Source: an uncultured Gammaproteobacteria bacterium
Lineage (GTDB): Bacteria > Pseudomonadota > Gammaproteobacteria > CAMYKB01
DNA length: 63,949 nucleotides
Assembly: GCA_947258875.1 (NCBI GenBank)
Contig: CAMYKB010000009.1
Coordinates: 1 to 63,949, forward strand
Reading direction: 5' to 3'
Shown: piece by piece, positions 2,950 through 62,378 of the stretch
Position numbering within the stretch: position 1 is the first letter of the stretch
Layout: each line of letters starts with the position of its first letter
Program-made: the position numbers and the translations under genes
The notes under the pieces: generated by a model
Seen by the model: only the letters and a program-made list of their open reading frames with translations
Databases searched by the model: none
What the model was told of the DNA's origin: nothing

Positions 2950-2984
2950 GGTTTGAGTCTGGCAGGCTGTGTAGACTTACTATT

Positions 2985-3034
2985 CGTCATACCCGCGCAC
3001 GCCTACAGGGACGTAGGCGTGCGCGGGTATGACG
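2985..3034. repeat. Perfect 22-bp palindrome, nested hairpin repeat
   Basis: Two perfect 22-base arms (2985-3006 and 3013-3034) flank a 6-base loop, AGGGAC. The outer part, CGTCATACCCGC, recurs at 58250. The inner part, GCCTAC-AGGGAC-GTAGGC, recurs at 13878. On the plus strand a run of six T follows after GA, so it could terminate plus-strand transcripts, but no plus-strand gene lies before it. The flanking genes are on the minus strand, where no T run follows. Confidence 0.8.
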
Positions 3035-3100
3035 GATTTTTTAAGCAGTAATGATGGATGTAGGACCGAATCATTATCTATAGCCTGCTACAAGACCGTG

Positions 3101-5254: not shown

Positions 5255-5774
5255 CTCCGCTCCTCAGTTGTTCTTGGGCTTAGTTACGTCACCCACGAAG
5301 AAATGGATGCTTGAAGCCCTTGTTAGGTATTCAATGTTTATCGACCGAATTGCAGAAAATATGAGTGATTAGTGGATATTATTCGGACACAGGCAGCAAA
5401 ATAATGCTGTCTGGGTCTGATTTGGGCAAAAAAAAGGCTTATCTACAAGGTTTTCCACATTGGCCTGTGAAATTCCAATCCCTGATTTATGGATGTGTTG
5501 TCTCTTGTTCCCACGGTCCTCGGCAACCGCTCCATGCGTTGCCCTGCCACCTACATCCTTGTAGGCGTCTGTAGGCTGAGGTATGGGTTCCCACGCGGGA
5601 GGGTGGGAATCAGGAAAGGGGGAGAGGTTGGCTGGCCATGTCATATGGAGACATGGTTTCTATTCACTAAAACGCACGCTATATCGATGGAATCATGATG
5701 TCGCCGCGCATGACTTCGGTGGCATAACCACCCGCCTCGATGGTTTCGATGTTCTCATGGCTGCCAAAGTGGTC
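5255..5774. other. Non-coding gap with decayed sequence
   Basis: No convincing gene is seen. Short open frames have no family features. The middle (5507-5600) holds modular repeat units in minus orientation. The stretch 5694-5770 translates on the minus strand to GGYATEVMRGDIMIPSI and then a stop, which may be a relic of another gene that I cannot name. Confidence 0.5.
5522..5565 (-). repeat. Hairpin-repeat module pair
   Basis: Two hairpins lie side by side: GGCAAC/GTTGCC (5522-5527 with 5538-5543) and CCTACA-TCCT-TGTAGG (5550-5565). On the minus strand the order is micro-hairpin, then an ACGCA linker, then GGAGCGGTTGCCGAGG, the same order as at 13878-13922 and 62324-62371. Confidence 0.65.
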
Positions 5775-6181
5775 TCATAGTTGCGCATGAATTGCGGTTT
5801 GATCTGTGACATCGTAACCAGCGGCTGGGCGGGGTCTGCGGCGTCGATCTCCACAGGGATGACGCCCACTTCGAGCTGTAGCTGGATTGTTATTATTGTA
5901 TCCTTGATGCTGAGGCGGCCGGATATAACAAGGGCATGCAGGGTCGCGATGGTCGGGTGTCCTGCAGAGGTGTTTCTTCACTCGGGGTAAAATAACGCGC
6001 CCGAATATCGGCCCCCCTATGATTTCATCACAAATGATGTCTCGGAAAGACTCATCTCGCGTGCGATGGCCTGCATGGCATTTGCTGACAGATCATCTGC
6101 ATCAAGCACCACGGCGCAGGGATTGCCGCCATAAGCGGCTCGGGTGAAGGCGTCGGCCTGGATAATAGGCAGGGTTTTCAT
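5775..6181 (-). pseudogene. phzF-family isomerase relic (truncated, frameshifted)
   Basis: The first frame starts with ATG at 6181 and reads IIQADAFTRAAYGGNPCAVV and IAREMSLSETSF, the N-terminus of PhzF-family epimerases, before a stop at 6017-6019. Homology continues in other frames. A +1 shift at a run of six G gives ADIRARYFTPSEETPL, and a one-base loss then gives GHPTIATLHALVISG followed by PVEIDAADPAQPL. About 120 residues of a 260-300 residue family are recognisable and the C-terminal half is missing. The lesions plus truncation indicate a dead gene rather than one sequencing error. Confidence 0.75.
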
Positions 6182-13734: not shown

Positions 13735-13908
13735 GGGGGCTAAGTTTACCAGCTAACAGCTATAAGCATTATCGATATTTGAGGTATGGATTCATCGCAA
13801 AGACGCAAACGACTCCATGGATGGAGGAGGTAGGGTAACGCATGCCTGCATGGATGTAGGTATTAGGGTAACGCATGCCTACAGGGACGTAGGTATTAGG
13901 GTAACGCA

Positions 13909-13978
13909 GGAGCAGTTACCGAGGAGCAGTTACCGAGGAGCAGTTACCGAGGAGCAGTTACCGAGGAGCAGTTACCGA
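13909..13978. repeat. Tandem array, five perfect 14-bp units
   Basis: The unit GGAGCAGTTACCGA is repeated five times without a mismatch (starts at 13909, 13923, 13937, 13951 and 13965). The first copy completes the GGTAAC/GTTACC stem of the module before it. Single diverged copies occur at 62356 and, inverted, near 5522. There are no spacers, so this is not a CRISPR. Confidence 0.9.
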
Positions 13979-14023
13979 GGACACGAAGAAAGATAAAAAT
14001 ATAAGTGAATATCGGCTTTTCTC

Positions 14024-14047
14024 GTTCCCACGCTCCGGCGTGGGAAC
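14024..14047. repeat. GTTCCCACGC palindrome
   Basis: A perfect 10-base stem GTTCCCACGC/GCGTGGGAAC with loop TCCG. Related arms (TTCCCACG, GTGGGAAC) recur around 5511, 5588 and 14080-14100. Confidence 0.8.
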
Positions 14048-14217
14048 GTATACCGTTACCTCATATAGCCACGATATAGGTTCCCGCAGCGGACCGTGGG
14101 AACCAGGGGTGTTTTACTTATCGGCATTACCGGTTTGTGATTCTGTTGCACAAAGAGCACATCAGGGACATCGCGTAGACGATCTGAAAGTTCTTCCGTG
14201 GTGGTGTATACAACCTT

Positions 14218-15509: not shown

Positions 15510-16201
15510 GTCGCTAACGCGACGATTGTTTTAGTCGGGGCCCGTCCCGACGGCCGAGGTACTTTCTTTGTCAACAGCGACAAAGAAAGTACCCAAAGAA
15601 AACGCCGCCCCGACAGGCGTGCTATTCCTGCGGTTCACGCGCCACATCCATGTGCCGCGCCCTAACGGGCAGCCCAAGGGCTGTGCAAATCGGCTTTCCT
15701 GCCGATTTGTCGCAGCTTTGGCTCCGAGGTTGTTCGACAGCACTTCCTTGTGCTGGCGAACAATGCGCGCGATCCCTCGCGCGCCCCTCCGGGCTCCCAG
15801 CCAAAGCTTTACGATGCTCGGGCTCGCTTGAAAGGGGATTTAAAACCCACGCATTGAGTTTCGGGGTTTTGATTAAACGAACTTTCAGTCTGAAATAGCG
15901 CTCCCGGGTTACGCTGCGCTTACCCAGGCTACAAAAGCGGTTTATTGTTTTGCACTTTGATTTTGATCTTCGTCCCGTTCGATGCAGCCGAGTATCGCAG
16001 CGAAAAATCGGGGGAAGTGCGCCCCCTGTTTGAGCTGAGCGCGGCTGGTCTTATGCTTAGCCCTGGGCTGAATATAAGACCCAGTCGTCGGGTGTCCTTT
16101 CTTTTGGGTAGTTTTCTTTGGGCAAGCAAAGAAAAGTACCATTCGCTCAGCCGCGTAGGCTGGTGCGAATACCCACATGAAATAATCATCGCGGTAGCGA
16201 T
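15510..16201. repeat. Composite inverted repeat element (two head-to-head copies)
   Basis: The left end opens with hairpin GTCGC-TAAC-GCGAC (15510-15523) and GATTGTTTTAGTCGGG. The right end reads, in reverse, ATCGC-TACC-GCGAT (16188-16201) and GATTATTTCATGTGGG, so the ends are inverted relatives. Each half then has an ACTTTCTTTG-type segment: a perfect 12-bp stem at 15561-15590 on the left and TTTTCTTTGGGCAAGCAAAG at 16109-16128 on the right. The left half also holds CACA-TCCA-TGTG (15643), CAAATCGGC-TTTCCT-GCCGATTTG (15686-15709) and a 14-bp stem with loop TTCCTT (15730-15763). The centre holds GGGTTACGCTGCGCTTACCC (15906-15925), related to the repeat at 62715. Open frames inside it look spurious. 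Confidence 0.8.
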
Positions 16202-19718: not shown

Positions 19719-19793
19719 GAGCGTGTCTTTTGACTTTATGCGCCGTTAAGTCTTGTCGAGCGATGCTCATGTGCTCACTTGTACGTCGTTCCC

Positions 19794-19880
19794 GCCCATC
19801 CATGGGCTCCACGACATAAGAACATCCATGTTCAAAACTGCGCATGTGAGCCGATTATCATGAAGTACATCCATGTACTT
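19794..19880. repeat. Three TCCA-loop micro-hairpins in a row
   Basis: GCCCA-TCCA-TGGGC (19794-19807), GAACA-TCCA-TGTTC (19820-19833) and AAGTACA-TCCA-TGTACTT (19863-19880) share the core CATCCATG but have unrelated, perfectly paired stems. The first is nested in GTCGT/ACGAC arms. The gap between apbC and dcd thus holds the clearest cluster of this family. Confidence 0.8.
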
Positions 19881-19901
19881 CCCCGCTTTGCGGCTCGCGT
19901 G

Positions 19902-45585: not shown

Positions 45586-46688
45586 TGAGTGAAACCCAGA
45601 CGAAAAACTTGATGCAACCGCACGTCAAATATGAAACCGATGATCTACGCATCAGTGGTATCAAGCAGTTGCGTTCACCCCAGGAACTTCACGTTGAGTT
45701 GTCAGCTTCTGATGCGGGTACCGAAACGGTATATGCCGCGCGCCAGGCGATACATCATATTCTTCACGGCCAGGATGATCGATTATTAGTGATCGTCGGT
45801 CCGTGTTCGATTCACGATCCTGATGCCGCGCGCGAATATGCGCGACGTCTTAAGTCTGTGCGCGAAGATCTTAGTGATGACCTGATGATCGTCATGCGGG
45901 TGTATTTTGAGAAGCCGCGCACCACGGTAGGATGGAAAGGGTTGATCAACGACCCGGACCTGGATGGCAGTTTTTCCATCAACAAGGGCCTGGGGTTGGC
46001 GCGTAGTTTACTGCTGGATCTGGCGGAGATGGGTGTGCCCGCAGCAACCGAATATCTCGATCTCATCAGTCCACAATATATCGCTGACCTGATCAGCTGG
46101 GGCGCCATCGGGGCACGCACTACCGAGAGCCAGGTGCATCGTGAGCTGGCTTCAGGCCTGTCGTGTCCGGTGGGGTTCAAAAACGGGACGGATGGTGATC
46201 TGCAAATCGCTATTGATGCCATGCGTTCCTCCTCGCGCCCACATCATTTCCTGTCGGTGACCAAGCAAGGCAACTCGGCAATCTTTTCAACCACTGGTAA
46301 TGAAGATTGTCATATCATTTTACGCGGTGGCCGAGAACCGAATTATGATGCCGCCAACGTGGCCTTAGCTATCGAAAAACTGCAGGCCGCCATGCTGCCG
46401 CCACGGCTGATGATCGACATGAGTCACGCCAATAGCCGCAAGCTACACCAGAACCAGATCGATGTGGGACGTGATGTGGCGCAGCAGATCGCTCGCGGGC
46501 AACTCCATATCAATGGCGTGATGATTGAGAGTCACCTGGTTGCCGGCCGCCAGGATGTGCTGCCTGGTAAACCGCTGGTCTATGGGCAAAGTATTACCGA
46601 TGCCTGTATCGGCTGGGATGATACCGTGACAGTGTTACAAGAGCTGGCGGCCTCGGTGCGCGCACGTCGTCAACAGGTTGCCGACTAA
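45585..46688 (+). CDS. 3-deoxy-7-phosphoheptulonate (DAHP) synthase, class I
   Basis: This condenses PEP and erythrose 4-phosphate at the entry of aromatic amino acid synthesis. It is the AroF/G/H type of 367 residues: GPCSIHD at 72-78 with the metal-binding cysteine C74, then [19 protein letters not shown] and MIDMSHANS are all present. The feedback specificity (Tyr, Phe or Trp) cannot be read safely. It is translationally coupled to hisG through a 1-base overlap and abuts hisD, an unusual place for an aro gene. Confidence 0.93.
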
Positions 46689-46710
46689 TTACCTTAAATA
46701 CGAGCAAGCC

Positions 46711-48012
46711 GTGCCCGATATTCGTCGACTTAACACTACAGATGCCGATTTTCGTGCCGCACTAGACCGCCTGTTGGCATGGGATAGCGCCACCGATGAG
46801 CGTGTTTTCACAACAGTCATGCAGGTACTCAAGGATGTGCGTGAGCGTGGGGATGCCGCGCTGCTTGAATACACGCGCAAGTTTGATCGCCTGGATGTTG
46901 CACAAGCCACCGAGTTGGAAGTTTCTGCACAGCAATTACAGAAATCTCTGAAGGCGATTAATACCTCGCAGCGGGAGGCGCTGGAAACCGCTGCCGATCG
47001 TTTGTGGACTTATGCCGAGCGCCAGAAACTTGAATCCTGGGAAATACAGGAAAAGGATGGTTCGCGTCTTGGTCAACAGGTCTCGCCGATGGATCGTGCC
47101 GGACTGTATGCGCCGGGAGGCAAGGCGGCCTATCCTTCTTCGGTATTGATGAATGCCATTCCAGCCAAGGTCGCCGGCGTCCCTGAGTTGATTATGGTAG
47201 TGCCCACGCCCGCTGGCGAGCGCAACGACATGGTGTTTGCCGCTGCCGCCATTGCCGGTGTGGATCGCGTCTTTACCATTGGCGGCGCGCAGGCTGTTGC
47301 AGCGCTGGCCTATGGGACCGAGACCATCCCCCAGGTCGACAAGATCGTCGGGCCAGGTAATATCTACGTTGCCACCGCCAAGCGCATGGTATACGGCGCT
47401 GTGGGCATTGACATGATCGCCGGCCCGTCCGAAATCCTGGTGGTCTGTGATGGCGACACCGATCCCGATTGGATTGCGATGGACCTGTTCTCCCAGGCCG
47501 AGCATGATGAGGACGCGCAATCGATCCTGCTGTGCCCCGACGCTGATTTCCTCGAGCGTGTAGCCACTAGCATGGATAAACTGCTGACGGAAATGCCGCG
47601 TGCCGAAATCATCCGTTCCTCGTTACGTGAGCGTGGCGCACTCATTGCAGTGCGCGATCTCGATGAGGCGGTAGAATTGATTAATCATATTGCCCCGGAA
47701 CATCTTGAATTATCAGTCGCTGATCCTGATGCGTTACTGCATGGCATTCGCCACGCCGGCGCCATCTTTATGGGCCGTTTTACGGCCGAAGCCCTGGGTG
47801 ATTATTGTGCCGGACCCAATCACGTGCTGCCAACCTCGCGCACGGCGCGTTTCTCGTCGCCATTGGGTGTGTACGACTTCCAGAAACGTTCCAGTGTGTT
47901 GGATTTCACGCATGACGCTGCCTCTGCATTAGGTAAAACGGCGTCCGTACTTGCGCACGGTGAGGGCTTGGTCGCGCATGCGCGTTCGGCGGAATATCGG
48001 ATTAAAGATTAA
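46711..48012 (+). CDS. hisD: Histidinol dehydrogenase
   Basis: This oxidises histidinol to histidine in two NAD+ steps with a zinc ion. The start GTG at 46711 (product [14 protein letters not shown]) fits the family; a TTG at 46678 would overlap the DAHP synthase by 11 bases and add 11 residues. Conserved parts include [52 protein letters not shown] and the C-terminal [18 protein letters not shown]. At about 433 residues it is full length. The next his gene is pushed away by a repeat element. Confidence 0.96.
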
Positions 48013-48023
48013 ATACATAGGGA

Positions 48024-48347
48024 GTGGCTAACGCCACGATTATTTTAGTCGGGGCTGGTGCCCAGCCTACGTGGCTCGAGCGAAAGTTACTTTCTTTGTT
48101 AACAGCGACAAAGAAAGTGGGTTTTGCGCTCAGCCGCGCAGGCTCCCCCAAGTCGCTCAAGGCCACTGTGCTTCGCAGCTTTGACTCCGAGGTTTGTCGA
48201 CAGGCCATCCTTGGCCTGTCGACAAATGCGCAGCATCTATGCCGCGCCCCTTCGGGCTCCCAGCCAAAGTATATCGCTCGGCCGCGTAGGCCCAAGCGCA
48301 CGCCTAAGGGGGTGAAGACCGGCAACGAATCATATCCGATTAAGGTT
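48024..48347 (+). repeat. Second copy of the composite hairpin element
   Basis: The element opens with GTGGC-TAAC-GCCAC (48024-48037) and GATTATTTTAGTCGGGG, as at 15510 but with one base pair of the stem swapped on both sides. An 11-bp ACTTTCTTTGT stem (48089-48118) follows. A perfect 15-bp stem with loop TCCT (48193-48226) lies where the first copy has an unrelated 14-bp stem with loop TTCCTT. The stretch GGGCTCCCAGCCAAAG occurs in both copies. The element fills the 379-base gap between hisD and hisC, and no gene is present. Confidence 0.8.
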
Positions 48348-48391: not shown

Positions 48392-49465
48392 ATGAAAAAC
48401 AAAATCGAACAATGGATACGACCCGAGATCCGCGCGTTGTCGGCGTATCACGTACCCGAACCTGCCGATGTCATCAAACTGGATGCGATGGAAAATCCTT
48501 ATCGTTGGCCGCAGGGGATGGTAGACGAGTGGTTAGAGTTGTTGCGCGATGTACCGCTAAACCGCTATCCGGATGCGGGCGCGCGTGCAGTGAAAAACGC
48601 CTTGCGTGCCAGCATGCAGGTGCCAGAAGGGCAGGACATCATGCTGGGAAATGGTTCGGATGAGCTGATCCAGATGGTTTGCATGGCGATTGCCGATTCG
48701 CAACGCTCGGTGCTTGCACCGCTACCCAGTTTTGTGATGTATCACATGATCGCGCAGTTTACCGGGATGCGGTTTGAAGGCGTGCCGTTACGCGCTACTG
48801 ATTTCTCGTTGGATATGCCCGCCATGCGCGTAGCGATCGAAAAAACACAGCCTGCGGTTATCTTTCTGGCCTATCCAAATAATCCTACGGGGAATTTATG
48901 GGCGCGAAATGATGTGGAAGAAATTCTTGAGCTCGCGCCAGGTCTGGTTATTGTTGATGAAGCCTACGCGCCATTTGCGGCGGATTCGTTTATGTCTGAT
49001 CTGGGGCGTTTTGACAATCTGTTAGTAATGCGCACTTTGTCAAAATTCGGATTGGCCGGTTTACGACTCGGTGTGCTGGCAGGCCCCACGTCGTGGTTGG
49101 AGGAGATCGACAAGCTGCGACTGCCTTACAATATTAATGTCCTGACGCAGGTAAGTGCTACTTGTGCGTTGCAACACGCAGCGGTATTTACAGGGCAGGC
49201 GAGTGCGATACGCGCCCAGCGGCAGCTCATGTTTGATCAGCTCTTAGGTATGCAGGACATCACGCCGTTCGCCAGTGATGCCAATTTTATTTTATTTCGC
49301 ACCGCTAGCGGTCGTGCCACGGAGATTTTTAATCGCATCCGCGAGCAAGGAGTATTAATCAAGAACCTGGATGCGCCCGGATTGCTCGCGGACTGCCTGC
49401 GCGTAACGATAGGCTTACCGGAAGAGAATGCGTGTTTTATAGAAGCGCTACGAAATGCCCGCTGA
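48392..49465 (+). CDS. hisC: Histidinol-phosphate aminotransferase
   Basis: A PLP enzyme of aminotransferase fold I that makes histidinol phosphate. The PLP lysine is K218 in RTLSKFGLAGLRLG, and N164 in the YPNNPTGN loop and D189-Y192 (VDEAY) are conserved. At 357 residues it is full length. It normally follows hisD directly, but here a repeat element intervenes, so its promoter may lie in or after the repeat. It converges on the DegS/AlgW gene with 23 bases between. Confidence 0.95.
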   Translation: MKNKIEQWIRPEIRALSAYHVPEPADVIKLDAMENPYRWPQGMVDEWLELLRDVPLNRYPDAGARAVKNALRASMQVPEGQDIMLGNGSDELIQMVCMAIADSQRSVLAPLPSFVMYHMIAQFTGMRFEGVPLRATDFSLDMPAMRVAIEKTQPAVIFLAYPNNPTGNLWARNDVEEILELAPGLVIVDEAYAPFAADSFMSDLGRFDNLLVMRTLSKFGLAGLRLGVLAGPTSWLEEIDKLRLPYNINVLTQVSATCALQHAAVFTGQASAIRAQRQLMFDQLLGMQDITPFASDANFILFRTASGRATEIFNRIREQGVLIKNLDAPGLLADCLRVTIGLPEENACFIEALRNAR

Positions 49466-62087: not shown

Positions 62088-62109
62088 AAGGATTGTTCCT
62101 ACAATCCTT
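62088..62109. repeat. 9-bp stem with TCCT loop
   Basis: AAGGATTGT-TCCT-ACAATCCTT is a perfect hairpin of the constant-loop family, with a stem unlike any other copy in the window. Confidence 0.75.
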
Positions 62110-62186: not shown

Positions 62187-62202
62187 GGTACATGGATGTA
62201 CC
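62187..62202. repeat. GGTACA-TGGA-TGTACC micro-hairpin
   Basis: A perfect 6-bp stem with loop TGGA. The core CATGGATG is the reverse complement of the CATCCATG shared by the three hairpins at 19794-19880. Confidence 0.75.
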
Positions 62203-62310: not shown

Positions 62311-62378
62311 ATCTCCGCGAATGCCTACATGGATGTAGGTAGTAGAGCAACGCAAGGAGCAGTTGCCGAGGCGGAGAT
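62311..62378. repeat. Nested repeat: arms enclosing hairpin modules
   Basis: The arms ATCTCCGC (62311-62318) and GCGGAGAT (62371-62378) enclose CCTACA-TGGA-TGTAGG (62324-62339) and the GCAAC/GTTGC stem (62347-62366) with GGAGCAGTTGCCGAG. The same inner modules occur without these arms at 13878-13922. Confidence 0.75.

Follow-up and report, generated by a model that had tools for sequence, protein, structure and literature searches.

The focal locus of this work lies in a stretch of 63,949 nucleotides from an uncultured Gammaproteobacteria bacterium (the window, i.e. the whole of that stretch), and it raises the question of what keeps the loop of a group of hairpins fixed while their stems change. 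Three such hairpins can be read on the minus strand of the cluster at 19785-19881. Hairpin A (19862-19881) is, as read in the sequence and folded, GAAGTACA-UGGA-UGUACUUC; the form given in the original prediction, AAGTACA-TCCA-TGTACTT, is present but shorter than the full stem of 8 bp, GAAGTACA-TCCA-TGTACTTC. Hairpin B (19820-19833), GAACA-UGGA-UGUUC, follows from sequence, fold and homologues in other genomes, and hairpin C (19785-19815) from an alignment (A1), pair counts and a model (R2), which matches the cluster at 19780-19840. Hairpin C is built of an outer stem (GUCGU/ACGAC), a purine internal loop (GGAG/CGGGA) and an apex, CCCA-UGGA-UGGG, at 19794-19807. Hairpins B and C correspond to hp1 and hp2 of a module that is called type D here, and a possible closing stem around the two (19773-19851, minus strand) can be read from the sequence as GCUCAC (19846-19851) with GUGAGC (19773-19778). 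Paralogues of the cluster are located at C1:155322 and C2:16453-16575; in these, terminal inverted repeats resembling GCTGTTGAAAAGCC are readable, terminal repeats being visible by eye in the type D copies L051 and L052. Rfam gave no match at the focal cluster, nor, up to an E of 0.5, where nine named loci have their type D module, and a type D search of plasmids gave no match.

The other hairpins of the original prediction are present at, or only a few bases from, the positions it had assigned to them. Its description of a fixed loop on variable stems is confirmed, except that the constant part extends beyond the TCCA/TGGA tetraloop: what the hairpins share is a core of eight bases, CATCCATG (or CATGGATG on the opposite strand), and since the variants CAAGGATG and CAGGGATG are likewise enriched, this core reads CA-NGGA-TG on the G-rich strand. 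The latter is the minus strand at 19794-19881, 5550 and 48193, and the plus strand at 13813, 13845, 62187 and 62324. That the stems are perfect or nearly so also holds (the stem at 13845 includes one G.T pair), while the hairpin at 62088, which is GT-AGGA-AC on the minus strand and does not have the CA/TG closure, falls outside the class.

When the window was compared with 300 dinucleotide shuffles of itself, requiring a stem of at least 5 bp, it contained 8 CA-NGGA-TG hairpins, whereas the shuffles averaged 0.18 and never exceeded 3; TGGA loops numbered 6 versus 0.55. Across 464 kb of genome sequence, made up of the window and 400 kb of further stretches, 21 of the 122 CANGGATG sites are extended by at least three further pairs, where 2.5 are expected, and no comparable excess was seen for other CANNNNTG loops (1.0x), for NGGA with other closing pairs (1.2x) or for the reversed core (1.8x). 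Enrichment of the loop trinucleotide across all hairpins is weak (1.6x for GGA). Raw ACANGGATGT counts relative to a reversed-pattern control were dropped, because they are confounded by codon usage, and the stem-extension test was used instead.

The hairpins are carried by at least three dissimilar types of dispersed repeat (C, D and A/B), in which, by inspection, no likeness in sequence is found apart from the hairpins. Types A and B consist of GTCATNCCCGC-like inverted arms with CCTACA-NGGA-TGTAGG or GCCACA-NGGA-TGTGGC. Type A is represented in the window by GGTACA-TGGA-TGTACC (62187-62202, plus strand), and type B by CCTACA-TGGA-TGTAGG (62324-62339, plus), by CCTACA-AGGA-TGTAGG (5550-5565, minus) and by an element at 13813-13860, between an rnfB-like gene and rnfC, with CTCCA-TGGA-TGGAG (13813-13826) and CCTGCA-TGGA-TGTAGG (13845-13860), both on the plus strand. 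Extra hairpins of type B have a GCA(N)GGAGC loop on stems that are variable too, such as the second hairpins GCAAC-GCAAGGAGCA-GTTGC (62347-62366, plus) and GGCAAC-GCATGGAGCG-GTTGCC (5522-5543, minus). A related hairpin with GGA in a larger loop, GGTAAC-GCAGGAGCA-GTTACC, is found at 13900-13920 (plus), and a minimal type B-like element at 2984-3035, with no strand assigned, is a 22-bp perfect inverted repeat with AGGGAC at its apex. Adjoining the type B hairpins are about five tandem copies of GAGGAGCAGTTACC (13905-13990). At 14023-14048 there is a perfect 11-bp palindrome, CGTTCCCACGC-TCCG-GCGTGGGAACG, whose G-strand loop is CGGA without CA/TG closure and which is probably another dispersed repeat.

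Type C has two element cores in the window, at 48181-48267 and 15718-15804, both on the minus strand. The former includes the predicted hairpin at 48193 (15-bp stem, loop TCCT), which was found with its G-rich strand on minus, and apparently lies inside the his operon, with hisD (46678-48012) on one side and a class I/II aminotransferase gene (48392-49465, probably hisC) on the other. A model of type C has 12 matches in the genome, and its fold comprises four helices with two GGA hairpins, in the layout of the Rfam family TwoAYGGAY (RF01731), i.e. two hairpins with AYGGAY loops within one enclosing stem, with RGGA or a mutated loop instead in some copies. The best TwoAYGGAY copy of the genome (L018:9255-9319) scores 40.6 bits, under the gathering score of 43, which is reached in the genomes G012, G025 and G009. 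Matches to RsmW (RF02809), including a weak one at 48190-48302 of the window, score 33.4 and 28.8 bits, under a gathering score of 52. Type C thus shares with TwoAYGGAY the two adjacent GGA hairpins in an enclosing stem, but differs from it in staying under the gathering score here, in its 12 genome matches and in its strongly diverged stems. TwoAYGGAY has previously been proposed to bind CsrA (PMC4333381).

If the stems matter as structures, they should have changed in pairs, and this is what the alignments show. In the pattern used to search for type D, the two outer stem positions were unconstrained. It returned 36 stretches, many of them in one Chromatiales MAG; other carriers include Shewanella mangrovi, a Solemya symbiont, Sedimenticola, Ectothiorhodospiraceae and Xanthomonadales, and type D is recurrent across Gammaproteobacteria. 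Both free positions pair in 29 of the 32 distinct sequences, in six combinations, with chance at about 1 in 16. In alignment A1 (type D), 96.2% of the cells are paired compared with 87.0% after shuffling, 23 cells are changed on both sides compared with 7.5, and covariation amounts to 0.256 compared with 0.092, while in 16 of 24 sequences hp1, lying outside the search pattern, forms stems that are perfect yet varied. In nine distinct copies of type C, 96.4% of the cells are paired and 19 of the 34 pairs have two-sided changes (7.1 when shuffled); the enclosing helix is nearly constant. The stems of types C and D therefore covary, contrary to what unrelated chance palindromes would do, and together with the excess over the shuffled window and the excess of extended stems this refutes chance as an explanation, leaving it a practically negligible probability. 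Exchange of modules occurs too, as copy C38_42496 joins the hp1 of C7_69811 to a near copy of the hp2 of C1_74156. For the suggestion that the stems arise by templated inverted copying there was no demonstration; compensatory change and such mosaic exchange suffice for the data, though inverted copying may still have contributed.

A contig titled as a Halobacteria archaeon (L197) contains a bacterial 6S RNA as well as a type D module, for which reason its title is probably misassigned. Type D modules with GG/CC stems are found on L176, L181 and L189 (titled Cyanobacteria bacterium RYN_339), and L001 has a cobalamin riboswitch at 5846-6067 (Rfam, 118 bits).

The original prediction knew of no described family of such hairpins. 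This was mistaken in kind, as a constant GGA loop on a stem of changing sequence is the known form of a CsrA/Rsm site, and type C in addition has the weak similarity to TwoAYGGAY/RsmW given above. By SELEX, the consensus site of CsrA is RUACARGGAUGU, and its GGA is favoured when it lies in the loop of a hairpin (PMC4347634). The core described here, CA-NGGA-TG and often ACA-NGGA-TGT, matches this site in its CANGGATG form, with ANGGA in the loop and paired ACA/UGU or CA/UG closing the hairpin. The genome has a single csrA, the product of which is identical to E. coli CsrA at 53 of 61 residues and retains the RNA-binding residues L4 and R44. That the loop is the recognition element of a protein, with selection acting on the structure, was among the original proposals and is well supported, since the stems covary and the core matches the CsrA site exactly; to judge from the sequences, CsrA is likely to be that protein.

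Should CsrA be the protein in question, one would expect the hairpins to go with csrA. Sampled stretches from 11 csrA-bearing genomes contain 356 CANGGATG sites, of which 50 have extended stems (8.2 expected); in stretches of nine genomes that lack csrA the figure is 2 of 85 (2.1 expected), the csrA-less G195 (0/10) being left out of these totals. The difference (Fisher p 0.001) comes from a sample that was partly picked for high counts and is phylogenetically confounded; in fact, most of the signal is from G000, G125 and G019, which were chosen for high counts or given, and the eight remaining genomes with csrA have 7 extended sites out of 147. Among 229 genomes of the class, searched with models of the two types, type C or D is carried by 56 of the 194 with csrA versus 7 of the 35 without (p 0.19, which is weak). 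The seven csrA-less carriers are all drafts that are fragmented and/or incomplete: G038, G099, G163, G186 and G214 are 73-87% complete, while G123 (95% complete) consists of 470 contigs and G195 (98%) of 270. Restricting the comparison to near-complete genomes (completeness of 95% or more, no more than 100 contigs) gives 35 carriers of 115 with csrA and 0 of 11 without (one-sided p 0.023). The association supports the identification of CsrA and is confounded by phylogeny and assembly.

One alternative is that the hairpins act as single-stranded DNA: a transposase (REP/RAYT or IS200/IS605-like) would recognise the loop when the element moves, the resemblance to a CsrA site would be accidental, and either strand could matter. 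The repeats are indeed dispersed, multi-copy and mostly intergenic, they are found between convergent genes more often than between divergent ones (20 versus 8), and the type D copies L051 and L052 have their terminal inverted repeats. Transposed copies, however, should share their stems, whereas here the stems differ and covary while the adjacent sequence of the element is kept. An accident would moreover have to account for a loop that is exactly ANGGA with the CA/TG pairs of the CsrA site, that is common to several dissimilar repeat types, and of which the extension signal is absent where csrA is absent in the sampled genomes, and on balance a transposase as the reader of the loop seems unlikely. 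Alternatively, a mutational process might have made the stems, i.e. correction of quasi-palindromes by template switching, with the loop as a relic of an ancestral repeat. Several consecutive compensated stem steps between close paralogues (alignment A2) would fit this, but it leaves the same loop in dissimilar repeats, the match to the CsrA site and the association with csrA unexplained, and hairpins are visibly exchanged between copies as well (C38_42496), so that template switching is a decidedly improbable origin.

CsrA sites are classically found in mRNA leaders, and some copies are sense-oriented and near genes, so the hairpins could also be cis-regulatory elements in the leaders or 3' UTRs of adjacent genes. 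Against this, the GGA strand runs antisense to the genes on either side at the his and rnf loci of the window and at the focal locus, where the neighbours are mrp/apbC and dcd, which means that a separate transcript would be needed at these three loci. There is also no overall orientation bias with respect to neighbouring genes (22 same and 17 opposite in a wider set of loci, in which an apparent antisense bias of type D disappeared), and copies between convergent genes outnumber those between divergent ones; we consider a cis-regulatory role very doubtful. An asymmetry between G.U and A.C mismatches was rejected as an indicator of the strand, since the counts are inconsistent (15 to 3 in one count, made on non-independent copies, but 1 to 4 in alignment A1).

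The reading that we hold to be probable is that the hairpins are sites of the CsrA/RsmA type, consisting of a GGA tetraloop with CA/TG closure on a stem whose sequence is free as long as it pairs, and that usually two or three of them stand together on each copy of a dispersed repeat. In CsrB/RsmZ-type RNAs, paired GGA hairpins bind CsrA dimers, and the G-strand RNA of the repeats, once transcribed, would fold into such pairs and could bind CsrA in the same manner. The copies would then act as small decoys of CsrA, or be under its control themselves; an RNA made from the elements, bound by CsrA and having an effect on the cell, and with it titration of CsrA by transcribed repeats, is what we infer from these features. 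Unrelated repeat families may, judging by their sequences, serve as decoys for the same regulator. A wider and more tentative possibility is that several unrelated mobile repeat types independently gained paired CsrA sites across Gammaproteobacteria, together forming a genome-wide buffer that sets the level of free CsrA, or using CsrA to control their own RNA. Titration of CsrA, a global regulator, is ascribed to a few dedicated RNAs. Should high-affinity sites be present in many dispersed repeats, the dose of CsrA would be coupled to the load of mobile elements, which would turn repeat copy number into a regulatory variable. The type D module, for its part, is a testable RNA family without an Rfam match here.

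No report linking CsrA with MITEs or REPs was found in literature searches, a 2024 review of MITEs does not mention CsrA (PMC10969869), and the presence of CsrA hairpins in several repeat types, as well as type D itself, look new. Like the binding hairpins of CsrA/RsmA, those described here have GGA in the loop, paired ACA/UGU or CA/UG and an otherwise free stem, but they occur in excess in dispersed intergenic repeats rather than within mRNA leaders or a single sRNA gene. The sponge RNAs CsrB/CsrC and RsmX/Y/Z/W likewise have several GGA hairpins per RNA, whereas the elements of this study, known from sequence alone, have two or three sites each in many dispersed copies. With MITEs and palindromic repeats (REP, ERIC, QMITE, NEMIS) they share a short, dispersed, inverted-repeat and non-coding nature, and terminal inverted repeats can be read in type D copies; what sets them apart is a loop that stays constant on stems that change.
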